The position numbers and the translations under genes were made by a program. Positions 2,169 to 63,624 of a stretch of 64,000 nt of DNA are shown here, one piece after another (the first letter of the stretch is position 1; each line of letters opens with the position of its first letter). The stretch is from Pseudomonadota bacterium (lineage in GTDB: Bacteria > Myxococcota_A > UBA796 > SXON01), in the NCBI GenBank assembly GCA_005778355.1, contig SXON01000119.1, forward strand, positions 1 to 64,000, given 5' to 3'. Under the pieces are notes generated by a model. It made no database searches and had not been told where the DNA came from. It saw nothing but the letters and a program-made list of their open reading frames with translations.

Positions 2169-3308
2169 CTATGGGTCGGGGAGGAAGCTCGCGTCGTAGC
2201 CCTCGCCCTCGCGGCGGATCCGCACCACGGCTACCTTCTCGCCCGGCGTGACATCGCTCCGCTCGGGCGCCTTGCCGAGTTGCCCGCAAGCGGCGGAGAT
2301 GTCGCGACCCCGAGTCACGCGCACGCTGGCCTGGATGCCGTGGTGCACGAGGTAATGCTGGAACTGCCTCACCCGCGCGTCGCCCGGGCGACGGATCTCG
2401 CGGTCGGGGTTCTCGTTGTAGGGGATGAGGTTGACCTTCGACTTGATGCCGCGCATCAGCTTGGCGAGGCGCGCCGCGTCGTCCATCGAGTCGTTGAAGC
2501 CGGCCATCATCACGTACTCGAAGGTGATGCGCTTCATGTTGGGCAAGGGCAGGTCGCGACAGGCATCCAGCAAGGCCATCATCGAGTATTTGCGGGTGAT
2601 CGGCATCACCTGTCGGCGTTGTTCCTCGGTGGTGGCGTTGAGCGAGACCGCGAGGTTGACCGGCAAGGCGTCGGCCAGCTTCTGCATCTGCGGGATGAGA
2701 CCGACTGTCGACACCGTGATCTTGCGATGCGAGAAGTTGAGCGCCTGCTCGTCGAGGTAGATGCGGAGTGCTGGGATGAGATTATCGACGTTGTGGAGGG
2801 GCTCGCCCATCCCCATCATCACCACGTTGCTGATGCGGAACTGGGCCTCGAGCGCTTGCCGCACCTGGAGGGGCTGGTTCGCGATCTCCGAGGGCCTCAG
2901 GTTGCGACGGAGGCCGAGGTCGCCCGTGAGGCAGAAGGAGCAGGCCATGGCGCAGCCCACCTGCGTGCTCACGCAGAGGGTCATGCGCTCGTCGTCGGGG
3001 ATGAGCACCGACTCGATGCGATGGCCGTCTTCCGTTTGCCAGAGGAACTTGTGGGTGCCGTCGATCGACTTCTGCACGGCCAGCGTCGTGAGCCATGGGA
3101 TGTAGAATCGCTCGCCGAGCAAGGCACGGACCGGCTTGGCGACGTTGGTCATCTCGTCGAACGACGTGACACCGCGTTGCCACAGCCACTTGTACACCTG
3201 GAGCGCGCGGAAACGCTCGGAGCCCATGCCCTGCAACGCCGCCTCGATCTCGGGCAGCTCGAGGCTCTTGATGTCGATGCGGCCGTCGGGACCGGTGAAG
3301 TGTGGCAT
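2169..3308 (-). CDS. rlmN: Dual-specificity 23S rRNA A2503 / tRNA A37 C2-methyltransferase RlmN
   Basis: This is a radical SAM enzyme that methylates C2 of adenosine 2503 in 23S rRNA and of A37 in some tRNAs. The 379-residue length is normal for the family. The cluster-binding CxxxCxxC is at residues 119, 123 and 126 (GCAMACSFC). The second catalytic Cys lies in the C-terminal ISAACGQLG block, at about residue 341. MMGMGEPLHN and the SAM-site SLNATTEEQR are also present. It starts with ATG at 3308 and is followed by a GC-rich hairpin. Its neighbours are functionally unrelated, so its position near the acyl-chain genes is probably incidental. Confidence 0.96.
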   Translation of the reverse strand: MPHFTGPDGRIDIKSLELPEIEAALQGMGSERFRALQVYKWLWQRGVTSFDEMTNVAKPVRALLGERFYIPWLTTLAVQKSIDGTHKFLWQTEDGHRIESVLIPDDERMTLCVSTQVGCAMACSFCLTGDLGLRRNLRPSEIANQPLQVRQALEAQFRISNVVMMGMGEPLHNVDNLIPALRIYLDEQALNFSHRKITVSTVGLIPQMQKLADALPVNLAVSLNATTEEQRRQVMPITRKYSMMALLDACRDLPLPNMKRITFEYVMMAGFNDSMDDAARLAKLMRGIKSKVNLIPYNENPDREIRRPGDARVRQFQHYLVHHGIQASVRVTRGRDISAACGQLGKAPERSDVTPGEKVAVVRIRREGEGYDASFLPDP

Positions 3309-3347
3309 CCTGCACGGGGGCTAACACTCCCTGGGCCGCGCGCGGCG

Positions 3348-4172
3348 CTACAACGTTATCCCATGGTTCTCCGCCGTTTCTCCGAAGGCGCGCACCGTGG
3401 CGGCGGTCAGGGTGCGTCCCTGGGCCCAGGGTGTCTGCCGACCCGACAACACCGCGACCAGCGGCTCGAGCAAGCAGGCGTACACGTGCCCATGGCCGTA
3501 GCCGGCCACCACGTGGAAGAGGTGCCCCCAGAGGTCGCGACGGTAGCCCGGTGGCAGGGGCAACTTCTCGCCGGGAACCACGCTGACTCCCGGGGCGCTG
3601 CCCGAGAGCGTGGCCGGGAGCGCCACGTCGACGAGCGTGGTGCCGGGCGCGATGGCTGAGGGGTCGACGGTGCCCCCGGTGGTGTTGGCGCCCACCACCA
3701 CCGGGAAACGTCGCAAGTCGGGCGGATCGGCCGTGGCGCCGAGGAGCTCGATGAGCGCGCGGCCCACGCTCCCCTTGGCGCCGACCACCGCCACGTCGCG
3801 TCCATCGCGCACGCGCTCCACCGTCTTCCACGCCGCCCACGCCGTGGCCGCGTTGCCCGTCGTCACCGGGACGCCGGTGTTTTCCTGGAGCGCCGTGCCC
3901 CGACCGGCCACCACGGAGAGCACGCTGCCGAGCCCCACCACGTCGACCGGCTGGATCACCTGGACCGCGCGGGTCATCGAGCGAAGCGCCTGCTCCTGGT
4001 CGGCGAGCAGTTGCGACGGCAACATCGGCACGCCGACGATCACCCCCTCCACGTCACGGTAGCCGACGCGGGCGATCACCGAGACGTCGTCGGGATCCGT
4101 CCCGTCGCGACGCCCCAGCAATAGGCCCGGCCGCCCCGTCCGCAACGCGTACACCTGGCGCGCCAGCGGCAC
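3348..4172 (-). CDS. AAR-like long-chain acyl-ACP/acyl-CoA reductase (aldehyde-forming)
   Basis: It resembles cyanobacterial acyl-ACP reductase (AAR), which reduces a fatty acyl-ACP thioester to the aldehyde with NAD(P)H. From memory of that family, three landmarks match. A LGS/TTGN stretch at residues 81-107 corresponds to the acyl-binding loop. A Rossmann motif VAVVGAKGSVG lies at 127-137. A Cys in HVYACLLEP at about 233 sits where AAR has its acyl-accepting Cys. It lies directly downstream of an acyl carrier protein, which fits an ACP-bound substrate. The only usable start is GTG at 4172. The in-frame codons upstream of it (RRFAFVVHPLV) look like the true N-terminus but lack a start codon before the ACP stop. 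The family is probable and the substrate is inferred. Confidence 0.55.
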   Translation of the reverse strand: MPLARQVYALRTGRPGLLLGRRDGTDPDDVSVIARVGYRDVEGVIVGVPMLPSQLLADQEQALRSMTRAVQVIQPVDVVGLGSVLSVVAGRGTALQENTGVPVTTGNAATAWAAWKTVERVRDGRDVAVVGAKGSVGRALIELLGATADPPDLRRFPVVVGANTTGGTVDPSAIAPGTTLVDVALPATLSGSAPGVSVVPGEKLPLPPGYRRDLWGHLFHVVAGYGHGHVYACLLEPLVAVLSGRQTPWAQGRTLTAATVRAFGETAENHGITL

Positions 4173-4212
4173 CAGCGGGTGGACGACGAATGCGAAGCGC
4201 CGCGTCGTGACG

Positions 4213-4644: not shown

Positions 4645-4706
4645 GCGGTCCTCGGCGGCCGCCCCTTCTACCTGATGGTCGGCGGCGCTGTCACGCAAAG
4701 GGTTGG

Positions 4707-5450: not shown

Positions 5451-5464
5451 GGGCGCGTGTTTAT

Positions 5465-5486: not shown

Positions 5487-5524
5487 CGACGAGGGCCCGG
5501 CGCATCCTGGGTTGGGTCAGGGTT

Positions 5525-7086: not shown

Positions 7087-7087
7087 G

Positions 7088-7588: not shown

Positions 7589-7642
7589 GTCGCGACGGGA
7601 AGCCATAGGGGGGGGGGGGGGTATTTTGACAGTTTCTTGACA
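7589..7642. promoter_or_regulatory. Divergent intergenic region with a 14-G run and two TTGACA boxes
   Basis: Between the divergent genes at 7480 and 7695 lies an uninterrupted run of 14 G (7608-7621). It is followed by TTGACA at 7626-7631 and again at 7637-7642, 11 bases apart. A homopolymer this long slips easily during replication, so it could vary spacing in a promoter. The TTGACA boxes could be alternative -35 elements for the plus-strand gene. No matching -10 box is clear. Confidence 0.4.
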
Positions 7643-7694
7643 ATTCCAGACCAGCGCGGCGGCGACCGTCCCCCGGGGCTAGACTCCCTCCGCC

Positions 7695-9122: not shown

Positions 9123-10261
9123 GCAAGCACAAGCAAGAACGCGGCGCTGCCGTCCTCGCAGCCGCAGTCATCACTCGGCGGCTCGGCCGGCTGGCCGCTG
9201 TCGGCCTCGACGTCGCACTGCCCGCCACCGTAGGCGCCCGCGCTCACCCAGGCGTCGACGTAGGCATCGCAGGCGGCCTCGGCACACTCGGCGGGGAGCG
9301 CCTCCTCGATGCAGGATCGAGGCGTGAAGTTCTCAGCGTCCAGCGTGACCGCCACGTCGAACCCGTCGGCGAGGTGGTCGCCGCACGTGTAGGACGTGCC
9401 GCCGAGGTCGAGTCCGCAGCGTACAGCCGGGAAGTCGGTACTCCGCTCCTCGAAGCTCCGGCCGCCGTCTGTCGACTTCCAAGTCCTCGCACCGTAGTAA
9501 CTGCCGAGCAGCACCGTCTGTCCCTGGTCGCGCACCAGCACGCCGGGCGCGGCGTCGGTGTAGTAGCCCGTCTCGAAGGTGGCCTCGAAGCTCCGTCCAC
9601 CGTCGGTGCTGCGGAGGAAGGCGGGGATGGCGGCGTCGGTCCTCGGCTTGGTCCAGAGGTAGATGGTGTTGCCGCTCGCCCAGACCAGGCGCGGGTCGGT
9701 GTCGCCCAGCGGCCAACTGTAGCGAGTTTCCCAGTTGAGTCCATCCGTCGTGGCGTAGAGTTCGGCGGCGAGGCCCTCGGTGTGCACCAGGGTGACATAA
9801 AGCGTGTCACTATCGACGAACGCGGTCTTCGGGAAGTATCCCTGGCCGTAGAGCGGGGTCGCGACACAATCGAAGGCGTCACACGTGAATACCCCACCGA
9901 CACCGTCACCCACCCAGAGCGCAACCGCCTTGTCTTGCCAGCGCTCGGCGCGCAGCACGAAGCCACCGTCGAGCCCCGTGTAGGGGGTCGCGACGCAGTT
10001 CCCGTCGATCATCACCATGCCCTCGCGGGTGCCGAGGATCGCGGTGCCATCATCCCAGGCCTGGACATCGTACACGGCCTCGGTGCCGATGGCCTCCTCG
10101 CAGATCCACGACCACGACTCGCCGGCGTCGCCCGAGTGGAGCACCCCCCAGCCCTCGCTGAGCATCCACAGCTCAGACGGAGATTCCAATCGGCCTCGCA
10201 CCAGCGTGGCGCCGAACTCGCCCGAGTGGGCGAATGCAAGGGCCACCGCCCCTAGGAACAC
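9062..10261 (-). CDS. BNR/Asp-box beta-propeller surface protein with a MYXO-CTERM-like tail
   Basis: This is a secreted beta-propeller. The GTG at 10261 starts a short signal peptide (VFLGAVALAFAHS) and overlaps the end of the ketosynthase gene by 10 bases. Asp-box motifs recur: SGDAGESW, STDGGRSFEA and STDGGRSFEE, typical of sialidase- and sortilin-like propellers. No sialidase Arg triad can be assigned. Near the end comes DDCGCEDGSAAFLLVLA and basic residues, the layout of the MYXO-CTERM sorting tail (Cys, hydrophobic span, Arg). An extra 12 residues follow that tail and run antisense into the FG-GAP gene, which is unusual. Its place between ketosynthase genes may be incidental. Confidence 0.7.
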   Translation of the reverse strand: MFLGAVALAFAHSGEFGATLVRGRLESPSELWMLSEGWGVLHSGDAGESWSWICEEAIGTEAVYDVQAWDDGTAILGTREGMVMIDGNCVATPYTGLDGGFVLRAERWQDKAVALWVGDGVGGVFTCDAFDCVATPLYGQGYFPKTAFVDSDTLYVTLVHTEGLAAELYATTDGLNWETRYSWPLGDTDPRLVWASGNTIYLWTKPRTDAAIPAFLRSTDGGRSFEATFETGYYTDAAPGVLVRDQGQTVLLGSYYGARTWKSTDGGRSFEERSTDFPAVRCGLDLGGTSYTCGDHLADGFDVAVTLDAENFTPRSCIEEALPAECAEAACDAYVDAWVSAGAYGGGQCDVEADSGQPAEPPSDDCGCEDGSAAFLLVLAYWPRTRKAWPEKARSSTSA

Positions 10262-11400
10262 CCGAGCACCAGGGCACAGTTCTGGCCGCCGAAGCCGAAG
10301 CTGTTCGACACCAAGATCCGCGGCGCGTGGTCGAGGTCCTGGGCCAAGACTGGACAACGCAAGGCGGGGTCTACGGTCTCGAGCCCGACCGTGCCGAACG
10401 TCTTCCCCTCCCCCATCATCCGCACGCACCAGGCCAGCTCCACGGCGCCAGCGGCGGCGATGGTGTGGCCGAGCGCGCCCTTGAAGGAGGACACCGGCAC
10501 CTCGCCGAGCACCTCGTGGATCGCGAGCGACTCGGCGATGTCGCCCACCGGCGTGCCCGTTCCGTGCGCGTTGACATACTCCACGTCGGCGGCGGTGATC
10601 CCCGCGTCGCGCAGGGCCCGTCGCATCGCGAGCGCTGCGCCACGTCCCTCGGGGTGGGGCGCGGTGACGTTGTGCGCGTCGACCGAGGTCCCAGCGCCGA
10701 GCAGGCGTGCGAGGATCGGCGCCCGGCGAGCGCGGGCGTCGGCTTCGCGCTCGATTTGCACGATGGCGGCGCCCTCGCCAATGAGGAAGCCGTCGCGAGC
10801 GCGGTCGAAGGGCCGACCCCGCGTGGATGACAGCGCCCCCAGGACCACGAAGGACAGGTAGCCGATGGGGTGCAACATCGAATCGTGGCCACCAGCATAG
10901 GCCACGTCGACGTCGCCCCGCGCCACCGCGCGCGCGGCGGCGCCGATGGACTGCGCGGCGGCGGCGCAGGCCGAGAAGTTGGTCTCGGCACGGATCGCGC
11001 CCAGCCGGGCGGCGAGCACCCGGGTGACACGGTCGGGCTCGTGGCGTCGGGGCGCCGCGCGCGTGGGATCGAGATCGGCCGCGAGGGCAGCGCGATCGAA
11101 ACGACCGTCACGCAGGTAGGGGTAAAGGTCGATGGCCAGCTCGGCCGGCGTGAGCGAGGAGAGGCCGGTGCCGAGGAACAGTCCAACGCGCGCGCCCTCG
11201 GGTCGCGACAGCTGCGCGAGGGCCGCGCTAGCCAGGCTGCCCTTGCGGTCGTCGGGAAAGTCCGGGTCGTCCTCGATGCCCTGCACTCGCGCCACTGCCG
11301 GAACTCCGAGAACCAAGCCGTCGGCGTCGGGTTGGCCGTGGTACCGGTCAGGCCGCCCGGCAGAAACGACCGCGGTGGCTGTGATGGCGACGGGCGTCAC
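10252..11400 (-). CDS. Beta-ketoacyl-ACP synthase (active type)
   Basis: This is a condensing enzyme that extends an acyl chain with malonyl-ACP. All catalytic residues are visible: Cys145 in NFSACAAAAQ, His279 in NAHGTGTPVGD, Lys307 and His312 in SFKGALGHTIAAAG, with the C-terminal NSFGFGGQNCALVL glycine loop. The 382 residues are shorter than FabF (about 410) because the N-terminal half is compact. The start is GTG at 11400. It lies 3 bases downstream of a receptor kinase gene and is therefore probably cotranscribed with it. Together with the second ketosynthase, a dehydratase and the ACP it forms a partial type II fatty-acid-like set. The product is unknown. Confidence 0.9.
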   Translation of the reverse strand: MTPVAITATAVVSAGRPDRYHGQPDADGLVLGVPAVARVQGIEDDPDFPDDRKGSLASAALAQLSRPEGARVGLFLGTGLSSLTPAELAIDLYPYLRDGRFDRAALAADLDPTRAAPRRHEPDRVTRVLAARLGAIRAETNFSACAAAAQSIGAAARAVARGDVDVAYAGGHDSMLHPIGYLSFVVLGALSSTRGRPFDRARDGFLIGEGAAIVQIEREADARARRAPILARLLGAGTSVDAHNVTAPHPEGRGAALAMRRALRDAGITAADVEYVNAHGTGTPVGDIAESLAIHEVLGEVPVSSFKGALGHTIAAAGAVELAWCVRMMGEGKTFGTVGLETVDPALRCPVLAQDLDHAPRILVSNSFGFGGQNCALVLGCS

Positions 11401-14107: not shown

Positions 14108-14755
14108 CTAGTCGCCCGGCAAGAGGCCCGTAAACGCAGTCACGGGGCCGAGGTCGCCGAGCCCAAGGGTGCGCGCGGCCGGCAGCTTCATCGGCGCCGC
14201 GAGGAGGGCAAAGACCGCGCCCTCGCCCGGAGGTCCGGACAGGCCCAGTCGCAGCCTGTCGCGCGCGCTCGCGAGGTCGACCGCCGAGTAGGCGGCGCCC
14301 ACCAGCACCGCATCGGCCCGCCCTTCGCGCAGCATGTTGCAGGCCTCCTCGAAGGCGTATCGCCCGGCCTCCTCACCCCCCGCAAAAACAGCGTTCTCCC
14401 CGCGAATACCGTGGGCGATGGCCACGTGGGCGAGCACCATGTTGGGGAGGGTGCGCAGGGGCAGGAGCGGCGGGTAAAGTGCCCGCCCCTCGCCGCCGAG
14501 GGCCTCGCGGTCGAGCTCACCGTCGCGACACATCGCCGAGAGCGAGGCCTCGGCGTCGCCCTCGTCGGGCGGCTCCCGACCCACGGCCACGACGATACCG
14601 AGCGACTCGGGGTCGCCCGAGAACGCCATCATGGCGAGGCCAGCGGCCGGCAACGCCAGCTGGGCCGCCCGCGGCAAGAGGCGGGCGTCTTTCTTGCGCT
14701 TCAGCCAGGGACCAAGGTCGGGCCCATCTACAGTCCCCGCCCATGTATCACTCAT
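14108..14755 (-). CDS. Short ketosynthase-like protein, second chain-length-factor-like paralogue
   Basis: The 215-residue product resembles the N-terminal half of a ketosynthase: LPRAAQLALPAAGLAM, GIVVAVGREPP, LPNMVLAHVAIAHGIRGEN, and AFEEACNMLREGRADAVLVGAAYS. By spacing, the active-site Cys position is Glu or Gly (FAGGEE), and the His-containing C-terminal half is missing. It is similar in size and plan to the protein encoded at 4707-5450. It sits just downstream of a full ketosynthase, the usual place for a chain-length factor. The ATG at 14755 was chosen because upstream codons overlap the ketosynthase gene in another frame. Confidence 0.6.
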   Translation of the reverse strand: MSDTWAGTVDGPDLGPWLKRKKDARLLPRAAQLALPAAGLAMMAFSGDPESLGIVVAVGREPPDEGDAEASLSAMCRDGELDREALGGEGRALYPPLLPLRTLPNMVLAHVAIAHGIRGENAVFAGGEEAGRYAFEEACNMLREGRADAVLVGAAYSAVDLASARDRLRLGLSGPPGEGAVFALLAAPMKLPAARTLGLGDLGPVTAFTGLLPGD

Positions 14756-29242: not shown

Positions 29243-29251
29243 GCGCTGCTC

Positions 29252-50856: not shown

Positions 50857-51474
50857 CGCCTGGACAACGACCTCCGCGCCGAGCCGCTCGCAGAGCTCCG
50901 CGTACCAGCGGGCCGCCGCCTCGGCGCGCCCCGGTAGCGCACGCGTGCCCCACACCACCACGACCGCCTCGCGCGTGCTGGTGCTCGTTTTTGTGCGCTG
51001 CGCGTCTTTCACCGCGTTGGCGCACGGGCCCTGGGCGTCGGCCAGGCAGAGCAGACCGCCGACGTCGATCGACTGCCCGCTGGCGTTGAAGATGTAGCTG
51101 CTTCCCTGCGGAGCCACGACGACCGACAAGGCACCTTCGGCACGATCGCGGTCGATCACGCTGATCGGCAGGCCGCTGTGCAGCGACACCACGTTGCAGG
51201 CGTCGACGATCGTGTTGATGGGCGCGAGGGCGCCCTCCGCGGCCGCGCGCACGAGGTATTCGCTGGCTGGCTTGCTCCGACCCGTGGGCTTGAAGCCACC
51301 CCATCGCAAGAGGTCGCGCACGGCGGCGCGGATCTCGTCGCTCGACGACATCGGCGCCGGCGCGTCGATCCGGAGAGCTTCGACGAGCCATTCCGGAGAG
51401 TCGCCGAACCCACCGGCGAAGCGCGCGAGGAAGGCGTGGGCGTCGAGGAGCGGATGCTCGGGCAGGGCGATCAT
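50842..51474 (-). CDS. B3/B4 tRNA-binding domain protein (PheT-like editing domain)
   Basis: The 210-residue product is a free-standing B3/B4 domain, the editing domain of the phenylalanyl-tRNA synthetase beta chain. Family features are WGGFKPTGRSKPASEYLVRAAAEG, APINTIVDACNVVSLHSGLPISVIDRDR and the later GQSIDVGGLLCLADAQGPCANAVKDAQRTKTS. Free-standing members may clear mischarged tRNA or bind other RNA; their role is poorly known. The start is ATG 51474. The next gene upstream on this strand begins beyond 53440 and ends 19 bases before it, so they may be cotranscribed. Confidence 0.85.
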   Translation of the reverse strand: MIALPEHPLLDAHAFLARFAGGFGDSPEWLVEALRIDAPAPMSSSDEIRAAVRDLLRWGGFKPTGRSKPASEYLVRAAAEGALAPINTIVDACNVVSLHSGLPISVIDRDRAEGALSVVVAPQGSSYIFNASGQSIDVGGLLCLADAQGPCANAVKDAQRTKTSTSTREAVVVVWGTRALPGRAEAAARWYAELCERLGAEVVVQALGEH

Positions 51475-51493
51475 CGCCGCGACTTATTGTCCG

Positions 51494-54241: not shown

Positions 54242-56233
54242 TCAATGCCTCCGTCGGATCCGCAGGACAAACTTCGCGCCGCCGTTGGTGCCTTCCAGGC
54301 ACTCCACCTTGCCGCCGTGCAGTTTTGCCGTCTCGGCCACGAAAGAAAGACCTAACCCATGACCACCCGCCTTGCCCCGGCCCGGGCCCTCGACGCGACG
54401 GAAGCGATCGAAGATGGACTTTCGATCGCCGACCGGGACACCGAGCCCGTCGTCTTCCACTTCCACGACGATCCAGCGACGATCCGCGTAGACGCGGAGC
54501 CAGGCCCGTCCCCCGCGCTCACTTTTGCGGTATTTGAGTGCGTTGTCGAGCAGGTTCGTCACGGCATCGCGCAGCAGCACCGGCATGGCCACCGCCTTCC
54601 CCACGGGCTCGGCCTGCACCGTGAGCGTGGCGCCCGCCTCGGAAAAGCGCGAGCTCCAGGCCACGGCGAGGTCTTGCACCAGCGCGTCGATGTCCACCGG
54701 CAGCGGGACATCGTCGCTCGGGCGCGTGGCCGCCCGGATGACCTCGTTCACCCGGGTGGTGAGTCGCTCCGCCTCGTCGACGATCCGGCGGGCGAAGGCG
54801 GCACGTTGCGCGTCGTCGCGGAAGGCGCCCATCTCGATCGTCTCGGCCATCACGCGAATCCCCGCGAGCGGCGTCTTGAGCTCGTGCGACACTCGGGCGA
54901 CGAAGTCCCGCTGGCGCTGGAGTAGCAGCTCCTGCTGCCGGTCATTCCGGATGAGGGCGAGCAAGGCTACGAAGCCCACGGCGATCGCAATGGCGAAGGG
55001 CAGGATTCGCGCGAAGAAAGCACGGCGGGTCTGGGTCTCGGTGGAGACCGCCGACAGGGTGATACCCGCCCGCAGGTGTCGCAACGCGTGGGGAAAGTCG
55101 ACCGTGACTGCGAGGTCGTCCGAGGAGCCCGCCACGACGCGGCCATCGGCGTCGCGAATGGACAGGAAGGGGCGGATGCTGGGGCTCGTGCGCTGGAGCA
55201 GCCACTTCAAGAGCGCCGCCTGGTCGACCTGAACGGCGCCCACGAGGTCGCCCACGCCCAGCCGCGACACCAGCACCAGCCACGGCGGGTCGGCGTAGGG
55301 ATCGACGAACACCCGCGGGGCTTCGCCGGGCACGGGCAGGTCGCGGGGATCGAAGGCAACCGTACGGAGTTCGCGCCAGGCCGCCAGGCGTCGCTCGGCG
55401 CGCGCCGCCGTCTCGTCGCCATCGCCCCCGATGGTGGGACCGCCGTAGGCGCGCAGGTCCGTCGCGAGCGGGAAATGGTAGAGGTCCGAGACCCGCTCCA
55501 GGAGGGGAGCGTCGAGGGCGCCGATCTCCTCGGCCAGCCCGGCGAGCCAGGCCTGGGCAATGTCGCCCCGCCCCAGCGCGTCGATCGCGCGAGCATGTTG
55601 AAGTCGCAGGATGACCAGCCGACGCACGTCGGATCCCTGCGCCGCCACCTGGGCGATCGGGCTCGACATGGTGCGGCCCAGCCGTCGGATGAGGCGATCC
55701 GCCGCCGCGGCCTGGTCGGCGTTGACGAGGAGCTCGGCGGCCTCCGACACCGCCAGGAGCGTGACCGCCGGGTCGCGACCTGCGCAGTTCGAGTACTCCT
55801 GCGCGAGCCGCACGGGGTCGCCCGGCTGCGCGGCGCTTAGCGTCGCCACCCGCTCCAGGCAGGGGTCGGCACGCAAGGCCACCAGATCTTCTTCAACCGC
55901 GCTCGCGGGGAAGCTCAGCTCGTCGCGCTCCCAGAGGTAGTAGGCGTCGAAGAAGTCGTCGTCCCGCCGGCGACGGGTTTCCAGCGAGGCCACGTCGTCG
56001 GCGGTGGCCAGCTCGGCGTACCAGGGCGCAGTGCGCTCCGCCAGGAGCGTTTCCCACTGGTCGACGAGCTGCGAAAGCCCCTCGCTCAGCGCGCGTCGCT
56101 CGCGCGCCTGGTAGGCCGCCTCGAAGGACAGGGCCTCGGAGAGCGCCACGCCGCTCATCACCGCGAGCACCACGATGATCCCGAGGTACACGCCCGGGCG
56201 CACATATCGACGGGGTGCAGCGGAGGAGGACAT
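54242..56233 (-). CDS. Sensor histidine kinase with a large periplasmic domain
   Basis: This is a 663-residue membrane kinase. There is one span near residues 12-32 (VYLGIIVVLAVMSGVAL), an extracytoplasmic domain of about 370 residues, and a second span near 412-432 (ILPFAIAIAVGFVALLALI). The HisKA motif is VARVSHELKTPLAG, with phospho-accepting His450. The ATPase has the N-box NLLDNALKY, EDDGLGVP and the G-box GGHGLGLSFVAETAKLHGG. The sensor domain is long and rich in helices, with two Cys (DPCLERV, YSNCAGRD). It starts on the base after the Ser/Thr kinase stop, so both kinases are made together. Confidence 0.95.
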   Translation of the reverse strand: MSSSAAPRRYVRPGVYLGIIVVLAVMSGVALSEALSFEAAYQARERRALSEGLSQLVDQWETLLAERTAPWYAELATADDVASLETRRRRDDDFFDAYYLWERDELSFPASAVEEDLVALRADPCLERVATLSAAQPGDPVRLAQEYSNCAGRDPAVTLLAVSEAAELLVNADQAAAADRLIRRLGRTMSSPIAQVAAQGSDVRRLVILRLQHARAIDALGRGDIAQAWLAGLAEEIGALDAPLLERVSDLYHFPLATDLRAYGGPTIGGDGDETAARAERRLAAWRELRTVAFDPRDLPVPGEAPRVFVDPYADPPWLVLVSRLGVGDLVGAVQVDQAALLKWLLQRTSPSIRPFLSIRDADGRVVAGSSDDLAVTVDFPHALRHLRAGITLSAVSTETQTRRAFFARILPFAIAIAVGFVALLALIRNDRQQELLLQRQRDFVARVSHELKTPLAGIRVMAETIEMGAFRDDAQRAAFARRIVDEAERLTTRVNEVIRAATRPSDDVPLPVDIDALVQDLAVAWSSRFSEAGATLTVQAEPVGKAVAMPVLLRDAVTNLLDNALKYRKSERGGRAWLRVYADRRWIVVEVEDDGLGVPVGDRKSIFDRFRRVEGPGRGKAGGHGLGLSFVAETAKLHGGKVECLEGTNGGAKFVLRIRRRH

Positions 56234-58297
56234 CTACTTCAGGCAGGCCGGGGGACGGCCCGAGAGCGCGTGGCCAAGCTCCGCCCAGGGGTGCGTGCTG
56301 TCGCCCAGAGCACTCTCCCCCAGGACCACGGCCGCCTCCGTCGTGCAGCGGCGGGCGGCGTGGCCGAGCGCCACGCACCACGGGGCGCCCGTGGCCTGCA
56401 GATTACCGCGGGATGACTTCAACTTCGCGTCGCGACAGTCCACCCCGGCGAAGGTGTACGCCTTCGAGAGCAACGCGCGCCGCTCGCCCGCGTCGGTCGG
56501 CAGCACCGCCAGCCTCGCATCCGCGTAGCGCAAGTAGGGCTCGACGCGCTGGCCGATGCCTGCGGCGACCATGCACTCTTCCACCAGCTCGGGGCCGTTC
56601 ACTGGGGCAAAGGCCACCCAGGACTGCAGTGCTTCATCGCAGACCGCCAACGCACGGTCGACCGTGCCATCCGCCTCGGCGTTGCCGATCTCGGCGTAGC
56701 GACCGGCGACCGAGCTCAGGGCGCGCACCGTTTGCCACGCCCCCTCGGCGCGCAGCCAGTGCCAGCTGTCGCCGGGCGGTACCGCCGCCCAGAAGGGGGC
56801 CAGCACCGCCACCGCGTGCTGGCAGTCGTCGATCTGTGGCACATCCGGGTCGCGACGTCGGCAGGCGCCGGCGTAGAGGGTGGCCTCCGCGAGCGCCGCC
56901 TCAGGCTGGCCCGAGCACAAGCTGTCCTGCACTGCGGCCCGGGCCTCGGCGAAGTCGGTGGGCGACCACTTGCCGCTCATCTGCCATTTCTGCGACCAGA
57001 CGATCGTGAGCGCTCGAAGCGCGCACGTACGCGGCGTGGCCGCCACCTCGTAGGCCTCCTGCGCGGCTCGTGCGAGCCGCTGGCGCTCGCTTTCACCATT
57101 GTGGCGCGGGTCGATCTTGTGGATCTTGAGCTGTTCCACGAGCGTGGCCGCCATGTCGTCGGCCTGGTCGCGACGCACCTGCTGGTAGGCAAACACGCCC
57201 GCCGCGATCGCGAGCATCGCGAGGCCGCCGAAGAAGAGCGCGACCTTCCCGAGGCCCAGCACGAAGCTGACGCAGCCGGGGGCGGCCCCGGGGGGCGGGC
57301 GCGGCAAGGGGGTGGGCGTCGGGGTCGGCGGTAGGCCCGGCGTGCTGGCGGGCCCGTCGGGCACCCGTTCGGTGTCGTCGCCGACCCGCTCCGTGCGCTC
57401 GTCGCGACCCGTGCCGTCGTCGAGGGCGCCGGGTTTACCCTGGGGCAGGGGCTCAGCGGGGACACTGTCCGCCAGCGCGTGCGCTGGGTCGATCGGGCGC
57501 TGCAGGTAGTCGACAAGCGACGTGCTCTCTCCCGCGAGGACGTCCAGTAGGCTTGCCGCCGTGGGCCGCGACAGAGGATCCCGTAGGCGACAGGCGGCGA
57601 GCGCCACGCGCCACTCCTCGGGCGTCGCGTCGCCGAAAAGCGCGCGAATGCAGCGCGCCGCCGCCCACATGTCGGAGGCGAGCCATGTTTCCCTCCGCTC
57701 GATTTGTTCCGGCGCGGCCCACGCGACGGTGCGATCACGATGGGGGACACCATTGTCCCCTCCGCCGACGTGCCGGAGGGTGTCGATGTCGATGAGGGCC
57801 AGACCGCCGTCGGGACGTCGCACGAGGTTGGCGAGCTTCAGATCGCCGTAGGCCACGCCCGCGCCATGCAGAAGCACCAGGAGATCGACGAGCGCCAGCG
57901 ACAGCTCGCGCGCCTCGGCCGGGCTCGGGATGCCGGGCAGCTCGTGCAAGGCCTCGCCTTCGACCCATCGCGTGCTCACGAAGACGTGGCCTTCGCGGGT
58001 GATCCCCCCGTCGATCGCCCGGGTCCACCGCGGGGGGGCGCCGGGGTCGCCAAGCACCCGGGCGGCGACAGCGTAGCCCTCGAGCGTCATGCCGATGTCG
58101 TCGCCGAGCGCCGTCACCGCACCCTTGCCGTCAACCACCAGCCGTCGCACGAAGCTGCCGTGATGGGCGGGCACCACGCCGGTCGTGATTACCCGGGTAA
58201 CGCAGCGGATGCCGTCGAGCCGCGTGACCAGCACCCGGCGATAACCCTTCTTCTCCTTGAGGACGCGCTCCTGCTCGTGGCCCGGGACCGTCGTCAT
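56234..58297 (-). CDS. Divergent transmembrane Ser/Thr kinase
   Basis: The 687-residue product has a kinase-like domain in residues 15-265. The catalytic loop reads AYGDLKLANL (Asp152; YGD instead of HRD), the metal motif is DID (170-172) instead of DFG, and APEQ marks the activation segment. I cannot see a glycine loop or the VAIK Lys, so the N-lobe is degenerate and activity is uncertain. A Pro-rich linker and one membrane span (SFVLGLGKVALFFGGLAMLAIAAGVFAYQ, near 345-375) lead to a 310-residue periplasmic helical domain with about 12 Cys. It overlaps the RodA-PBP gene by 4 bases. Confidence 0.85.
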   Translation of the reverse strand: MTTVPGHEQERVLKEKKGYRRVLVTRLDGIRCVTRVITTGVVPAHHGSFVRRLVVDGKGAVTALGDDIGMTLEGYAVAARVLGDPGAPPRWTRAIDGGITREGHVFVSTRWVEGEALHELPGIPSPAEARELSLALVDLLVLLHGAGVAYGDLKLANLVRRPDGGLALIDIDTLRHVGGGDNGVPHRDRTVAWAAPEQIERRETWLASDMWAAARCIRALFGDATPEEWRVALAACRLRDPLSRPTAASLLDVLAGESTSLVDYLQRPIDPAHALADSVPAEPLPQGKPGALDDGTGRDERTERVGDDTERVPDGPASTPGLPPTPTPTPLPRPPPGAAPGCVSFVLGLGKVALFFGGLAMLAIAAGVFAYQQVRRDQADDMAATLVEQLKIHKIDPRHNGESERQRLARAAQEAYEVAATPRTCALRALTIVWSQKWQMSGKWSPTDFAEARAAVQDSLCSGQPEAALAEATLYAGACRRRDPDVPQIDDCQHAVAVLAPFWAAVPPGDSWHWLRAEGAWQTVRALSSVAGRYAEIGNAEADGTVDRALAVCDEALQSWVAFAPVNGPELVEECMVAAGIGQRVEPYLRYADARLAVLPTDAGERRALLSKAYTFAGVDCRDAKLKSSRGNLQATGAPWCVALGHAARRCTTEAAVVLGESALGDSTHPWAELGHALSGRPPACLK

Positions 58298-61200
58298 TGA
58301 CTCCCCGCCGGCGGCGTCGGCGGAGGCAGATATCCCTCGCCCTGCAACGCCTTCACCGCGTCGATCACCAGCGGGCCCGCCGCGGAGGCGCCGAAGCCGC
58401 CGTGAGGCACCACGGCGGCGATCGCGTAGCGCTGGCCGCCCGCAGCGCAGTCAGCGAGCTCCTCGCCCTCCGCGATGGCCACGAGCCAGGAGTGCGGGGT
58501 GGTGGCCTTTCCCGGCTTGATGCCCCACGGCACCTCGGCCTTGGTGCCCGGGGCGTCGGCGGTGCCCGTCTTGGCGTAGAGCCGCACGCCCGGGACCTTG
58601 GCGAGACGCGCGGCCGTGCCACGGTCGACCACACCCTTCATGCCCGCGAGGATCGGCGCGGTGCTGGTGCCGGGGGGCAAGAGCGCCACGGCCGGGCAGG
58701 TGGCGCCGAGCTCCATGCTCGCGGGACAACGCAGGTAGTTCCCACCGTTCGCGACGGCCGCCACCAGCCGTGCCGCCTGCATGACCGACCAGCTGGCCGC
58801 GCCCTGCCCGAAGCCCGTTTGCGCCAGGCGACGGCTCCCCGCCTCGCCGATGCCCGTGTAGGGACCATCCTTCTCCGCGAGTAGCCCGGGGTTGCCAAAC
58901 TCCACGCCCTCCTCGCGCAGGCGCCGATAGGCGCTCGGGCCGAGCTTGAGCGCAAGCTGGCCGAAGTACACGTTGCTCGAACGCGTGATCGCCTCGACGA
59001 GGTCGACGTCGCCGCGCGCCCCGCCGTCGCCGAAGTCGTGGATGGGCTCCGACCAGCCCGGCAGCGTGTAGCTCGTGCGCCCCTCGGTGACGGTGTTGCA
59101 CGGGAACACGGGCGAGGCTTCCCCGGGACAGTCGCCGTCGAGCTCCGCGCTCACGACCCCCTCGCGAACCGCCACCAGCGCCGACAGCGTCTTGAAAACG
59201 CTGCCCGCCTGGTACACGCCGTGCGCGCCGGTCTTGTCGGACCACGGGCCGTAGACCCCCATGAACTTGGTCTCGTCGCTCGCGCGGAGCGGGCGCCAGG
59301 CGGTGCCTCCCGGGTCGAAGTCGGGCCATTGGGCCCGCGCCAGCACCTCGCCCGTCTGCGTATCGAGCACCACGATCGCCGCCGCGCCGATCTTGGTCTT
59401 GCTCGCGGCTTTCCTCGTGGCCGTCGCGACGAGCGCCTGGAGTTGCCCGTCGATCGACAGCCGCACGCTCCGGCTCTCCACGTCGTTGGCCAGCGTTGTG
59501 ATCGCTTGCACCCGGCCCTCCACCCCCATGCGGGCGATCGGCAAAAGCGCCGAGTAGTCCGGGTCGGCGAGGCGCACGCGAGCGGGCTCGCCAACACCGC
59601 CCCGCTCCCCAAGGCGAGCGGTGGCCCGCGCCGCCTGCTCGGAGTCGGCCAGGACGCCCCCCTCGGTGGCAAACACCACCTGTCGCGACTTTCCGACTAC
59701 GCCCACCCACGCGTGCTTGCCCTCTGCCATGTTGGGCCAGCCCCGCAGTCGCGTGTCGAGCATCTGCTCCACTTGCCACTTTGCTCGTGCCAAGTTGCTG
59801 TCGGCCGTGCCGAGCACGGTGCCGAGCTGGTCGCCCATCGGGTTGACGCGCGCACCCGCGGCCGGCGATGCGGCGAGCACCTCGCCCCCGCGATCGAGGA
59901 TCGAGCCCCGTCGCACCTTGCGGGCGAGCACGGTGAGGCGCGGGTCGTGCTTGATCACCGGGGTGCCATCGCCGAGCGTAGTGACGAGCCCGCGCAGGGT
60001 GGTGTCGTCGCGACCCACCATCGCGTGTACGAAGGTGGAGACCCACAACGCGATCACCAGGCCCACGACCCCCACGCGGAGCGCGTTGACGCCTCCACGC
60101 AGTTCGCGCAGCTCCTCGGTGTCGGCGCGAAAGTGGCCGTCGTCGCCAAGCCGCACCAGAAGCGCCACCACGCCTACCAGGGCAACGGAGCCGGTCTTGC
60201 CAAAGGACAAGAACGGCACGACCACGCCAGTGAGTGGGAACCAGCCGAGCGTGCCGCCGAGGATCACCGTGGCTTGCGCCGCGATGAGCAATCCGAGGGC
60301 GGCGGCCATCATCACGCGTTCAGGCGTGCGGTTGTGCGCGGCGATCCGCAGCCCGTCGAGCACGCAGATACCGAGCAGCACGAGGTAAGCGCCAGCGCCC
60401 GACAGGCCGAGCACCTCCACCAGATGCGCGTAGACGAGGTCGGTGTGACCCGCCGGCAAGGCGCCCGCGACGCCCGCGCCGACGCCGCTCCCGAACGGGC
60501 CGCCCGCCGCCAGCGCCCATCGCGCGAGCGCGAGCTGGTCGCCGTTGGGGCGGCCGTTGAGCCAGGGATCGCGCCACATGTCGACCCGCAGCGCGAGGCT
60601 CGCGGACGGCGCCGCGTCAGGGTGAATTCGGAAGTAGATCAGGATGACGGCAGAGAAGACAACTGCGGCCAGCACCCACGCCGGGCTCCGGGTGACGACG
60701 AAAACCAGGCCGAGGAAGACCAGGGCGAGGATCAGCGTGGGACCAAAGTCACGCACGGCGAGCAGCCCGAGCCAGGCCGCTGCCATCATCCCCAGGGCCA
60801 CCGCGAGGATGCGCAGCCGGGGTACGCGAAACCATCCGAAGAAGACGTCGCGATGCCAACGAAGCTTGAAGGCGCGCGCCCCGAGCGTGGCACCGACCGA
60901 CAGCACCACGCAGACCTTCACGATCTCGATGGGTTGAAATCCCCAGAGGTTGATCGTCTGTCCCGACGCCCCCGGGGCCGTGCCGAAGAGGCCGAGGGCC
61001 AGGAAGAGCAGCACCGCCGCGCCGAGCAGTACCCAGCGCCCCCGGGCGAGCCAGTCGCCCAGGTCGCGGCCCCCCACCTGCGCCGGCACCAGCGAGATCG
61101 CGGCCGCCACGGCGCCGGCGTAGAGCACCCCCGAGGCGAAGGCCGGTGCGGGCCAGTTGGCCGAGAGCGGCGACCCGTAGGCCACCTGGACGACGAAGCC

Positions 61201-61497: not shown

Positions 61498-62747
61498 GGC
61501 GCGGTTCCGGTTCCGGGCGCGGGCTCGGCCTGCCCGGTACGCACCACGGTCCCCTCGCCTTCGACCACGAGCGCCTCGGGCGACGGGATCGAAAGGTGGT
61601 CGATCGTCACCCGGGTGCCAGCCGGGGCCACGACGCGGATGCGGCCTCGCTCCACGCGCACGTCGCGCAAGAGGAGCTCGGCACCGGACGCCAAGACCAC
61701 GGCGAGCTCGCGGTCCAAGTCAACCACCGCTCGCTCGAGGGTCACTGCCGCGAGCGGCTCCACGGTGATGGTCCAGTCGCTCCCGGTGAGCGCCTGGCCC
61801 CTCACGGCGAGGGCGCGCTCGGCAGCCACCAAGGTCTGCGTGCCCGGCCGCAACGCAAGGGGGGCCTCCGGGCCGATCGTGGCACTCGCATCAACGCGCG
61901 CGGGCACCTCCTGCCCAGCCGCGCCGCTCAACCATGCCCCGAGCTGCGAGACGTGGCCGCCGCCCGCAAGCACCCCGAGGCCCAGGGCGATGAGCAGCAC
62001 GCCGAGCGCCAGAGAGGTCCACGGCACCCGCATCTTCCGCTCCCGACGCGAGAATGGCGCCACGCGGACCGCCACGACGGTCACGTTGTCGGGCCCCCCC
62101 CGGGCGAGCGCCCGGCCCACGAGGCTCGTCGCAACCGCGTCAGCGTCCTTGGCGCCACGGAGCCGCACCAGCTCCTGCAAGAGCTCGTCTTGCGGGACCA
62201 CGTCGGTGAGACCATCCGAGCAGAGCACGAGAAGGTCGCCCGGCTCGATGGTGGCCTTCCCCGTCTCCACCCACTCACCCTGGGCGTCGCGACGCCCAAG
62301 ATCCCGGGCGACCTGTCGCTTGGTGTGGGCGGGCCCATCGGCCACGTGGTCGCGAGTGAGCAAACGTACGCCACCCTTGTGCACGAGGTAGGCGCGCGTG
62401 TCGCCCACGTGCGCGAGGCGCACGCTCTTGCCGTCGTCGTCGATCCGAACCGCAGTGGCCACCGCGCCCATGCCCTCCTTGGCGCGGTCGGCGTCGGCCT
62501 CGTCCAGGATGCGCTGGCGGGCCACCTGCATGGCCTGGGCCAGCACCGTCTCACCAGCGAGGCCGGGCGAGGGGGGCACTTCGGCAATCGCTCGCACCGC
62601 GATCGCCGCTGCCACTTCGCCGTGGGCCTCCCCGCCCATGCCATCGACCACTGCGAACAGACCCGCCTCAGGACGGCACACGAAGGCGTCCTCGTTGATC
62701 TCGCGGACCTTGCCGGCGTGAGTACGCGCGGCGGCATCGAGGGCCAT
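61494..62747 (-). CDS. PP2C-family Ser/Thr phosphatase, membrane-anchored (PstP-like)
   Basis: This is a 417-residue metal-dependent phosphatase that reverses Hanks-kinase phosphorylation. The catalytic domain (1-240) has REINEDAFV, VVDGMGGEAHG (two metal Asp/Gly motifs), LAHVGDTRAYLV, LCSDGLTDVV and GGPDNVTVVAV. One membrane span (TSLALGVLLIALGLGVLAG, near 247-267) is followed by an extracytoplasmic beta-rich tail of 150 residues. The domain order is that of actinobacterial PstP, and so is its place directly before rodA. It is coupled to the RodA-PBP gene by a 4-base overlap. Confidence 0.94.
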   Translation of the reverse strand: MALDAAARTHAGKVREINEDAFVCRPEAGLFAVVDGMGGEAHGEVAAAIAVRAIAEVPPSPGLAGETVLAQAMQVARQRILDEADADRAKEGMGAVATAVRIDDDGKSVRLAHVGDTRAYLVHKGGVRLLTRDHVADGPAHTKRQVARDLGRRDAQGEWVETGKATIEPGDLLVLCSDGLTDVVPQDELLQELVRLRGAKDADAVATSLVGRALARGGPDNVTVVAVRVAPFSRRERKMRVPWTSLALGVLLIALGLGVLAGGGHVSQLGAWLSGAAGQEVPARVDASATIGPEAPLALRPGTQTLVAAERALAVRGQALTGSDWTITVEPLAAVTLERAVVDLDRELAVVLASGAELLLRDVRVERGRIRVVAPAGTRVTIDHLSIPSPEALVVEGEGTVVRTGQAEPAPGTGTAP

Positions 62748-62790
62748 CAGCGCCCCCAGGCTTGCGACGGGGCGCGGCGAGGCGTGGGGA

Positions 62791-63624
62791 TCATCGGCTG
62801 AGCGTCCCGCGCCACTGGTCCTTGGTCAGCGCGAGCTCGACCGGGAGGGCGACGGTGACGGTCTCGCCCTCGGCGAGATCTCGCTCGCCCACCCGCACGG
62901 GGTTGGCGTTGGCTTCTCGCCCGATCTCCGCCTCGTTGCCCCGCAGCAGAATGGCCAGTTGGCGACGGCTGATCTTCTTGTTGTCGGTGGTACCCGGCAG
63001 GCCGAGCTGGTCGCTCGTCGCCGCACCAGTGTCGCGACCGAGCACGCAACGTCGACCCTCGGGGAGCCCGACGCTGCCGAGCTTGCTCGACAGTCGCGCA
63101 TAGTCGCGCTCGGTTTCTGGGCGCTCGGCGGGGCTCTCGTTCACGATCCGATCGCCACGCACGGTCACCTCGCCCTTGATCGGCGTGGCGCTCGCGACGT
63201 CGTCGAGGCGCTGACCCCAGATCACCGCCGCGCCCGGGGGCACCTCGCGGTTCTCGTCGGGCACCCAGCGCACCGCCACGGTCTTTCGGTGGGTCACGCC
63301 GCGGCGGATCAGCTCCTCGTGGAGGACGGGCAAGACCTGCGCTCGAATCTCGGCCTCCATGGGGGCGAGCCCCGCGAGATCGACCTCGGCGAGGAAGAAG
63401 GTGTAGTGATTCCAGAGCCAGGGCGCGCCGTTGACGTCGAGCGGACGACAGCGGTCCATCATCGCGACCAGGGCGCTCCGAATGGCGAACGGGTCGAGGA
63501 TCGACGTGGCAGGAACCGGAGTGAAGATGCCCCGCGCCTTCTCGAGCAAGCCGCTCGGTGACGGGCGAGGCACATTGGCGAAATCCACTTTGAACTTGTT
63601 GGGATCGCGGGTGGGCTCGATCAC
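62791..63624 (-). CDS. FhaA-like protein: DUF3662 plus FHA domain
   Basis: The 277-residue product starts at GTG 63624, which overlaps the stop of the preceding FHA gene by 4 bases. Its first half resembles DUF3662 of mycobacterial FhaA (LWNHYTFFLAEVDLAGLAPMEAEIRAQVLPVLHEEL, then VAVRWVPDENREVPPGAAVI). Its second half is an FHA-like fold for binding phosphothreonine, with GLPEGRRCVLGRDTGA, a Ser/Arg recognition loop KKISRRQLAILL, NANPVRVGE and LAEGETVTVAL. FhaA binds phosphorylated MviN and other wall-synthesis proteins. A similar role here is inferred from domain order and neighbours. Confidence 0.8.
   Translation of the reverse strand: MIEPTRDPNKFKVDFANVPRPSPSGLLEKARGIFTPVPATSILDPFAIRSALVAMMDRCRPLDVNGAPWLWNHYTFFLAEVDLAGLAPMEAEIRAQVLPVLHEELIRRGVTHRKTVAVRWVPDENREVPPGAAVIWGQRLDDVASATPIKGEVTVRGDRIVNESPAERPETERDYARLSSKLGSVGLPEGRRCVLGRDTGAATSDQLGLPGTTDNKKISRRQLAILLRGNEAEIGREANANPVRVGERDLAEGETVTVALPVELALTKDQWRGTLSR

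Follow-up and report, generated by a model that had tools for sequence, protein, structure and literature searches.

The highly iterated palindrome (HIP) HIP1 (GCGATCGC), first described in 1995 (PMC1939737), is an 8-bp cyanobacterial palindrome present in hundreds of copies per Mb; its one-off variants at the first and last positions are raised, and sites have been gained and lost among related genomes (Elhai 2015, PMC4390886). The density of the HIP class is given in the same account as ~500–2500 per Mb. Exceptional HIPs of single cyanobacteria are GGCGCC, rCCGGy and GCsGC, and in each of these genomes a methyltransferase with that word as its predicted target is reported; the relation between HIPs and methyltransferases was still termed a mystery in 2015, and the evidence largely follows cyanobacterial phylogeny (PMC4390886). 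Accumulation by drive has also been described for DNA uptake sequences (PMC1939737), and in Caulobacter the solitary methyltransferase ScmA, found with a Vsr-like protein, is associated with the word YGCCGGCR (PMC12907096). Among the titles and beginnings of abstracts listed by a literature search, there was no HIP from outside the cyanobacteria. In the papers searched, the only match to the string analysed here, GTCGCGAC, was a mouse melanoma study.

Abundance and distribution of GTCGCGAC

GTCGCGAC is an 8-bp palindrome with a TCGCGA core. It occurs 55 times in the window, that is, in the whole 64,000-base stretch of DNA analysed, and is its top-count 8-mer when the plus strand is counted. 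The exact matches lie at 1749-1756, 2301-2308, 2553-2560, 3534-3541, 4104-4111, 7589-7596, 9858-9865, 9987-9994, 11202-11209, 14522-14529, 14900-14907, 19270-19277, 20309-20316, 22576-22583, 22606-22613, 25060-25067 and 25311-25318; at 27108-27115, 27213-27220, 27331-27338, 27491-27498, 28019-28026, 28229-28236, 28703-28710, 29486-29493, 29561-29568, 29922-29929 and 29998-30005, which together form the densest cluster; and at 33036-33043, 34081-34088, 35641-35648, 35928-35935, 36111-36118, 38706-38713, 42031-42038, 42177-42184, 42630-42637, 44998-45005, 45908-45915, 46197-46204, 46866-46873, 47595-47602, 48264-48271, 50691-50698, 53267-53274, 55772-55779, 56429-56436, 56849-56856, 57167-57174, 57401-57408, 59423-59430, 59682-59689, 60007-60014, 62286-62293 and 63031-63038. 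At a GC content of 70.4%, base composition predicts 2.66 copies and an order-3 Markov model 9.0. The 49 sites in called genes are distributed over the three codon phases (22, 11 and 16) and over genes on both strands (28 minus, 21 plus), and six sites lie outside called genes. Spacing is Poisson-like (CV 0.88–1.13) and thus gives no sign of a need for even spacing, for example as a mismatch-repair signal per kb.

An earlier note on this DNA had listed 53 starts, all of them correct, and overlooked two (1749 and 27108). Its figures were ~69% GC and ~3 expected copies; its statement that the word is read in all frames and in genes on both strands is confirmed. The density peak of 10 sites that it described exists as a cluster of 11 (starts 27108-29998), but the scan P of 0.005 applies to a region picked post hoc, and the lack of sites in a 522-bp element is uninformative, since 0.45 sites are expected there at the window mean. 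The genome-wide count that it proposed gives 3410 copies of GTCGCGAC in the 6.6 Mb of the source genome (G000) vs 194 of the reversed word CAGCGCTG. The argument that codon use does not explain the excess holds as well: in 276 kb of coding DNA from 206 called genes of G000, 165 sites are observed, whereas 40 synonymous shuffles predict 21.8 +/- 5.1. Thirteen of the 15 control words stay at 0.8–1.7 times their shuffle expectation, including CGACGTCG (60 vs 41.6 expected, 3.5 sd above); the exceptions are GTCGCGAG, a one-mismatch form of GTCGCGAC (28 vs 9.9), and GGTCGACC (36 vs 18.6). Outside called genes, G000 has 20 sites in 28.0 kb, or 714 per Mb vs 610 per Mb overall, the corresponding values being 414 vs 547 in G014 and 396 vs 549 in G015. 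An order-6 Markov model expects 45.3 of the 55 window sites, but it is circular because its 7-mers come mostly from GTCGCGAC itself; as the codon-aware test is independent of these word-dominated 7-mers, we do not take the order-6 result as a refutation. A ratio near 1 under either kind of model had been named in the note as evidence against the motif, and while the order-6 figure fits that wording, the codon-aware ratio does not. The excess of GTCGCGAC is genome-wide and goes beyond codon use, as in the HIP class.

Eleven members of the genus were compared, two of them (G012 and G018) sampled thinly (13 and 35 kb). The excess, which the note had proposed to look for in relatives, is present in six species and lacking in three. 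It is ~8-fold in the three genomes closest by protein identity, hereafter the trio (G000; G014, 102 observed/12.6 shuffle-expected; G015, 116/14.7), and 3.6- to 4.7-fold in G013 (55/11.7), G019 (55/13.7) and G021 (71/19.5), these six being designated HIP+; the HIP- genomes G016 (4/3.2), G017 (7/6.5) and G020 (8/7.1) show none. Whole-genome densities, calculated with rounded genome sizes, are 516, 457 and 444 per Mb in G000, G014 and G015, 195, 291 and 278 per Mb in G013, G019 and G021, and 23–92 per Mb in the five remaining members, among which G012 (92) and G018 (64) are represented by whole-genome counts alone. Only G000 reaches the HIP density range, at its low end, with G014 and G015 just below. 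G000 also has the highest density among the counts listed across the phylum (377 genomes); in raw counts, 150–222 per Mb are reached by several genomes from other families, ten such densities having been calculated. In viral contigs, 22 stretches carry three GTCGCGAC near each other, as local clusters. The members of the trio being close relatives, their contrast with the other genomes may reflect one evolutionary event.

Conservation and turnover of sites

Third codon positions within GTCGCGAC are conserved above those in the 30-bp flanks in all three pairs of the trio, namely 61/70 vs 312/503 from G000 to G014 (p = 1e-5), 71/83 vs 389/593 from G000 to G015 (p = 1e-4) and 87/95 vs 546/681 from G014 to G015 (p = 0.003), a comparison at synonymous positions of the kind that the note had proposed. 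Whole sites are retained in 14/19, 19/31 and 28/36 cases in the three pairs. The corresponding figures are 57/179, 61/176 and 231/398 for the other palindromes of 8 bp, and 6/24, 6/25 and 25/46 for TCGCGA outside GTCGCGAC. In the trio, the bare core thus shows no conservation like that of the full word, indicating that it is the complete 8-bp word that is being maintained in these genomes. When palindromes of 6 and 8 bp and a few short words were scanned, GTCGCGAC was the best conserved motif of the trio (trinucleotide-matched z 6.9, with pairs counted in both directions). Within the word, the mean identity of CGCG (positions 3–6) exceeds that of the outer four positions in six out of six directed trio comparisons, codon position being uncontrolled. 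Third positions in the flanks of sites are less conserved than overall (0.57–0.66 vs 0.70–0.73, G000 against G014/G015); the sites lie in faster-evolving stretches, as expected if a drive fills whatever positions are free.

We tentatively favour the reading that GTCGCGAC is a highly iterated palindrome upheld by a drive coupled to modification or repair. A sequence-specific system of the cell would recognise GTCGCGAC as a short site, and recognised sites would accumulate and be guarded from loss wherever the protein code permits. If the recogniser were coupled to DNA modification or to mismatch or strand repair, heteroduplexes or near-misses would be resolved towards GTCGCGAC, a molecular drive as proposed for cyanobacterial HIPs, and this drive would act instead of selection on each site for a local function. 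We infer that the trio retains an active system, whereas G013, G019 and G021 have lost it or have it in weakened form. In G019 and G021, site turnover appears near neutral (12 aligned site pairs) and the transition product ATCGCGAC/GTCGCGAT is found 90 times vs 47 expected; for the trio, the observed/expected counts are 90/80, and for the HIP- genomes 39/44; GTCGCGAC in these two genomes looks as if it were fading.

Some simple forms of such a drive fit the data poorly. Lost sites carry transversions among their mismatches, so that T:G-only repair cannot explain everything. Ratios for near-cognates are 0.65 in the trio, 0.76 in G013, 0.81 in G019 and G021 and 0.65 in the HIP- genomes; a simple conversion of near-cognates to the cognate word predicts lower values in HIP+ than in HIP- genomes, and no such depletion is seen. 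First-position variants are raised compared with the HIP- genomes (A, 1.40/0.91; C, 0.70/0.57; T, 1.13/0.85). Raw counts of one-off variants peak at position 2, and some variants at positions 3–4 are raised too.

The main rival to drive is that GTCGCGAC is a selected binding site of a nucleoid, segregation or recombination protein, its copies being kept for chromosome organisation, which we consider possible but rather unlikely. The full 8-bp specificity of the conservation, with forms carrying one outer mismatch not conserved, would suit such a protein, as would the conserved synonymous positions and the occurrence of the word both within and outside called genes. By contrast, the Poisson-like spacing speaks against it, and the absence or apparent fading of the word in congeners is hard to reconcile with an essential site.

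Search for a cognate methyltransferase

The usual partner of a HIP is a methyltransferase that reads part of its word, and the earlier note had named a methylation target as a possibility for GTCGCGAC, next to a repair or nucleoid-protein target, either of which may still apply. We surveyed PF00145, PF01555, PF02086, PF07669 and PF02384 in the 11 genus genomes and clustered 101 hits; DNMT2-like loci, hits at unfetched loci (e.g. G020:C134 and G019:C13) and most rows below ~30 bits were left out of the clustering, and in one row (L053) the frame is shorter than its match. Among these 101 hits of five families, no cluster occurs in each of the six HIP+ genomes while being missing from the HIP- ones, which speaks against the favoured drive, and the suggestion of a methylation target finds no apparent counterpart in an enzyme that follows the word. 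Moreover, no methyltransferase of the survey has a predicted target matching GTCGCGAC, with specificities assigned by homology alone. A PF00145 protein of ~300 aa is found in the whole genus; it was rejected as the driver, being a DNMT2-like tRNA methyltransferase with 9hgm and 1g55 as its best solved relatives. G013, G019 and G021 have no PF00145 hit beyond this enzyme.

Three cytosine-5 methyltransferase families are each shared by G000, G014 and G015 and missing from the eight other genus genomes. Enzyme (a) (G000:C173:48968-50680) is followed by a MIG-like glycosylase (51229-51936); in G015 it is partnered by an MvaI/BcnI-family endonuclease. In a comparison of 71 genomes from the class, only the trio has the glycosylase at 85% identity or above and the enzyme at 71% or above, and a 53% relative of the enzyme occurs in G002, where the raw count of GTCGCGAC is 206 in 3.9 Mb. 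Relatives of enzyme (a) in Bacteroidota share a downstream gene cluster at 61 of 79 loci, one scanned member of which is an MvaI/BcnI-family endonuclease; these 79 loci (1.15 Mb) show no excess of GTCGCGAC (3 vs 2.2 expected). Enzyme (b) adjoins an Eco29kI-type endonuclease on contig C116 of G000 and is an orphan in G014 and G015, flanked by recN- and rlmL-like genes. Enzyme (c) (L003/L004/L005) is an orphan at G000:C195:29316-30215, G014:C335 and G015:C15; its relatives (57–68% identity) lie beside NgoMIV-, R.NGOI- or NaeI-type endonucleases in four of six records, those adjoining such endonucleases being plasmid-borne.

The partner endonucleases at the examined methyltransferase loci belong to the MvaI/BcnI, Eco29kI and DpnII families, whose targets we take to differ from GTCGCGAC. 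For (a), (b) and (c), the matching targets are presumably CCCGGG, CCGCGG and GCCGGC. In the trio, the ratio of CCCGGG is 1.59–1.72, that of CCGCGG 0.66–0.73 and that of GCCGGC 0.79–0.82, the last compared with 0.92–1.05 in six other well-sampled genus genomes; GCCGGC is also low in other genera (G007 and G011). Neither CCCGGG nor CCGCGG is conserved above background in the trio scan. Enzyme (a) with its glycosylase was dropped as the main driver on account of the MvaI/BcnI-family partner, the raised CCCGGG and the excess in G013, G019 and G021 in its absence, and enzyme (c) was rejected because the partners of its relatives point to GCCGGC, which is lowered in the trio. Judging from gene neighbourhoods and word frequencies, the three trio-only enzymes likely have other words as targets.

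It is accordingly improbable that GTCGCGAC is the target of one of the three. The presence of each family does match the genomes with conserved sites, and enzyme (a) and its glycosylase are confined to the trio at high identity within the class; however, partner endonucleases indicate other words for all three, the shifted frequencies of CCCGGG, CCGCGG and GCCGGC fit those words, and G013, G019 and G021 show the excess without any of these enzymes. Still less probable is a DNA uptake sequence, a word that would build up by biased recombination as competent cells import word-bearing DNA: a short word that is greatly overrepresented and whose sites turn over resembles such sequences, but those treated in PMC1939737 are not palindromic. 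That the excess is an artefact, whether of base composition, of codon use or of contamination in the assembly, can practically be discounted, for although the order-6 model expects 45 of the 55 window sites and the G000 assembly (85% complete) has 6.3% contamination, that model is circular for GTCGCGAC, synonymous shuffling contradicts such a reading, five further assemblies show the excess and sites are conserved between species.

Relation to described systems

It is conceivable, if somewhat doubtful, that GTCGCGAC is a HIP outside cyanobacteria that is kept by some other recogniser, without a methyltransferase reading it, and occurs in active, fading and absent states within one genus. If true, such a genus would amount to a natural experiment on how HIPs arise. 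An independent test is offered by this second HIP, unrelated to the first, because it is kept in some related species and apparently fading or absent in others. The candidate driver is any factor that the trio has in active form and the other species lack; the simplest link between HIPs and methyltransferases is already strained by GTCGCGAC.

The uptake sequences of Pasteurellaceae and Neisseriaceae are likewise short words in large excess with a plausible molecular drive, but, unlike GTCGCGAC, they are non-palindromic and linked to competence. The Caulobacter ScmA word is also a palindromic 8-bp word with thousands of sites per genome; unlike GTCGCGAC, it has a known methyltransferase. As with the exceptional HIPs of cyanobacteria, a different word takes the HIP role in particular species, although for GTCGCGAC no methyltransferase predicted for the word was found in the five families. 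HIP1 proper, GCGATCGC in a cyanobacterium, is not what G000 carries, and GCGATCGC shows no excess in its coding DNA (25 vs 23.6 expected). GTCGCGAC differs from HIP1, the core of which is CGATCG, in its TCGCGA core and non-cyanobacterial lineage, and, unlike in HIP1 genomes, the families searched yielded no methyltransferase that would read part of it. Like HIP1, however, it is an 8-bp palindrome present in hundreds of copies per Mb and gained and lost among relatives. The parallel with HIP1 drawn in the earlier note is supported by a genome-wide palindrome that occurs in all codon phases, keeps its third positions in close relatives and is patchy in the genus. Collectively, these data place GTCGCGAC beside cyanobacterial HIP1 as a HIP of different sequence and lineage.

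Abundance of GTCGCGAC and codon use

By exact count, the 8-bp palindrome GTCGCGAC occurs 55 times in the 64,000 nt of the window; the 53 starts listed in the earlier note are all right, and two more, at 1749 and 27108, had been overlooked. The chance expectation of about 3 also stands, base composition giving 2.66. An order-3 Markov model predicts 9.0 copies and an order-6 model 45.3, the latter figure being circular for this word because its 7-mers derive mostly from GTCGCGAC. Each one-mismatch neighbour has 1–11 copies in the window, and the whole host genome (G000, 6.60 Mb) contains 3410 copies of GTCGCGAC versus 194 of the reversed word. The proposed density peak is borne out insofar as 27108–30005 holds 11 sites in 2.9 kb (scan P 0.005), although the region was picked post hoc. 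The genes under this cluster are MOSC, BPD_transp_1 and CoA-transferase III.

When synonymous codons were shuffled inside each called gene (40 rounds), 276 kb of G000 coding DNA displayed 165 GTCGCGAC versus 21.8 ± 5.1 expected, distributed over codon phases as 77, 56 and 32. Outside called genes, G000 has 20 copies in 28.0 kb (714 per Mb versus 610 overall), and densities there are somewhat below the overall values in its closest relatives by protein identity, G014 (414 versus 547) and G015 (396 versus 549). Given the shuffle excess, the presence in all phases and the similar non-genic density in G000, the excess is made by neither protein sequence nor codon use, in agreement with the earlier claims that the word is read in every frame and that codon use is not its cause. 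Of 15 control words, 13 lie at 0.8–1.7 times the G000 expectation, including CGACGTCG (60/41.6), which is nevertheless 3.5 sd above it; the exceptions are GTCGCGAG (28/9.9) and GGTCGACC (36/18.6).

Distribution and maintenance within the genus

Among 11 genomes of one genus, GTCGCGAC densities per Mb are 516 (G000), 457 (G014), 444 (G015), 291 (G019), 278 (G021) and 195 (G013) in the upper six, and 92 (G012), 64 (G018), 51 (G017), 24 (G020) and 23 (G016) in the lower five. In 150–300 kb samples, GTCGCGAC is the top over-represented 8-bp palindrome in each of the upper six and shows no excess in G016, G017 and G020; the G012 (13 kb) and G018 (35 kb) samples are too small for excess or word-frequency calls. 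The codon-aware test puts observed/expected near 8 for the trio of G000, G014 and G015, at 3.6–4.7 for G013, G019 and G021, and at 1.1–1.3 for G016, G017 and G020. Two sampled genomes of other genera, G007 and G011, have 14/12.2 and 2/6.7 observed/expected. None denser than G000 was seen among 71 class and 377 phylum genomes, the highest density worked out outside the genus being 222 per Mb as a raw count not adjusted for composition.

ATCGCGAT, possibly a variant word, leads the over-represented 8-bp palindromes in the samples of G017 (16 versus 4.0); there, GTCGCGAC (7 copies) is under its Markov expectation of 22.1 yet level with the codon-aware 6.5. CCAGG/CCTGG is strongly avoided in the G020 samples (400/827), as if under restriction there, and mildly in those of G016 (486/585), with no avoidance in the other well-sampled genus genomes (0.96–1.16).

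Conservation at synonymous positions, which the earlier note had proposed as a check, is evident in all three trio pairs: identical third codon positions inside GTCGCGAC versus 30-bp flanks number 61/70 versus 312/503 for G000→G014 (Fisher p 1e-5), 71/83 versus 389/593 for G000→G015 (p 1e-4) and 87/95 versus 546/681 for G014→G015 (p 0.003). Whole sites are conserved in 14/19 (G000–G014), 19/31 (G000–G015) and 28/36 (G014–G015) cases, and all other 8-bp palindromes in 57/179, 61/176 and 231/398, respectively. A looser alignment-overlap rule brings 30 instead of 19 sites into the G000→G014 third-position comparison, and under it 21/34 G000–G014 site pairs are conserved. In the same order of pairs, the inner TCGCGA outside GTCGCGAC is conserved in just 6/24, 6/25 and 25/46 cases and words differing at a single outer base in 3/17, 3/16 and 9/21; thus all eight bases count for maintenance, which is on average greatest in the CGCG centre. 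A mild preference for T preceding and A following the word is also seen in the trio.

When 6- and 8-bp palindromes and a few short words were scanned, every pair being counted in both directions, GTCGCGAC proved the best conserved relative to trinucleotide-matched third positions in the trio (z 6.9), and CCCGGG and CCGCGG are conserved below expectation. GATC and GCATGC come next (z 4.9 and 4.6). In single comparisons, some non-palindromic 8-mers equal or outdo GTCGCGAC, which ranks 20/545 and 27/480 among words with at least 12 occurrences.

Between G019 and G021, 3/12 site pairs are conserved, and third positions inside GTCGCGAC (14/19 and 15/19) show no significant difference from flanks (p 0.32 and 0.14); G013 shares 0/16 site pairs with G019 or G021. 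The transition product ATCGCGAC/GTCGCGAT stands at 90/47 observed/expected in G019 and G021 together and at 34/26 in G013; the trio has 90/80 and the three genomes devoid of excess 39/44. On these small numbers, it looks as if the maintaining activity was lost in the G013, G019 and G021 lineages, where the word would be decaying; alternatively, a weaker activity may be accompanied by fast turnover.

Methyltransferases and candidate explanations

Clustering by identity of 101 hits to five methyltransferase families (PF00145, PF01555, PF02086, PF07669 and PF02384) in the 11 genus genomes yielded no cluster present in all six word-rich genomes yet absent from G016, G017 and G020. One D12 and one PF01555 cluster are near-universal (10/11 each). 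The PF00145 protein universal in the genus is DNMT2-like, and the PF00145 search gave nothing else in G013, G019 and G021. This putative tRNA methyltransferase (L065:6641–7522 and related loci; the G018 copy overruns the contig end) is found in 11/11 genomes, adjoined by PPIase and SDR genes wherever surroundings were compared.

We tentatively favour accumulation of GTCGCGAC by modification- or repair-coupled drive. Such drive would fill free positions, placing the word in fast-evolving stretches; third-position identity in the flanks is 0.57–0.66 versus 0.70–0.73 overall (G000 versus G014/G015). Changes at lost sites include transversions, and repair of T:G alone is therefore insufficient. 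Somewhat unlikely, though next in standing, is that GTCGCGAC is a selected protein-binding site; its spacing is Poisson-like (CV 0.88–1.13), which counts against a need for regular spacing.

That one of three m5C methyltransferase families drives the word is a live rival, since among the genus genomes they occur in exactly G000, G014 and G015, but we consider it improbable, as their partner endonucleases and the word frequencies fit other words. Family (a) (L063:8969–11940 on G000:C173, with its glycosylase; L066 on G014:C219; L070 on G015:C138) is followed by a MIG-like glycosylase gene and, in G015, adjoins an MvaI/BcnI-family endonuclease; 61/79 of its Bacteroidota relatives have a common downstream gene cluster, the one scanned member of which belongs to the MvaI/BcnI-type endonuclease family. 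From its gene content, the locus looks like a restriction system with its own T:G repair. Family (b) adjoins an Eco29kI endonuclease in G000; in G014 it is flanked by recN- and rlmL-like genes, with the same neighbours in G015. Family (c) (L003:1120–2427, + strand, G000:C195; L004, − strand, G014:C335; L005, − strand, G015:C15), 70–80% identical among the three genomes, is apparently solitary, the scanned neighbours including no endonuclease, and Caulobacter ScmA, a solitary methyltransferase (YGCCGGCR), would be a natural comparison. Its relatives at 57–68% identity, some on plasmids, adjoin an NgoMIV-, R.NGOI- or NaeI-type endonuclease in 4/6 records.

The words corresponding to the partner endonuclease families of (a), (b) and (c), for (c) those beside its relatives, are presumably CCCGGG, CCGCGG and GCCGGC, respectively. 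In the trio, CCCGGG is raised (1.59–1.72), CCGCGG is lowered (0.66–0.73, versus 0.84 in G013 and 0.96–1.14 in the other well-sampled genus genomes) and GCCGGC is lowered (0.79–0.82 versus 0.92–1.05 in the six well-sampled genomes of the genus outside the trio), being low in G007 and G011, of other genera, too. The specificities suggested by the partner families would fit these frequencies, and together they make the case against the three enzymes as drivers of GTCGCGAC. That GTCGCGAC is an uptake sequence seems more improbable still, and a small share of the probability falls to none of these four readings.

The family (a) glycosylase is short, has HhH and matches MIG (1kea) and MutY at 102 and 103 bits. 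Its Tyr at the MIG Tyr126 position is not decisive, because one MutY likewise has Tyr there, according to part of one report (PMC2714593). The glycosylase and the next gene are identical between G014 and G015 and the methyltransferases just 69.5% identical, as if the methyltransferase had been exchanged.

Comparison with cyanobacterial palindromes

In the open-access literature searched, no highly iterated palindrome (HIP) outside cyanobacteria was recognised, nor any mention of GTCGCGAC as a genome feature. Every HIP-bearing cyanobacterial genome reportedly has a methyltransferase matching some portion of its word, according to excerpts of one study (PMC4390886); for GTCGCGAC, this feature of the class is unconfirmed across five families in 11 genomes. 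GTCGCGAC is another word, not HIP1, yet the parallel in kind drawn earlier holds: it displays the main statistical feature of the HIP class and behaves alike.
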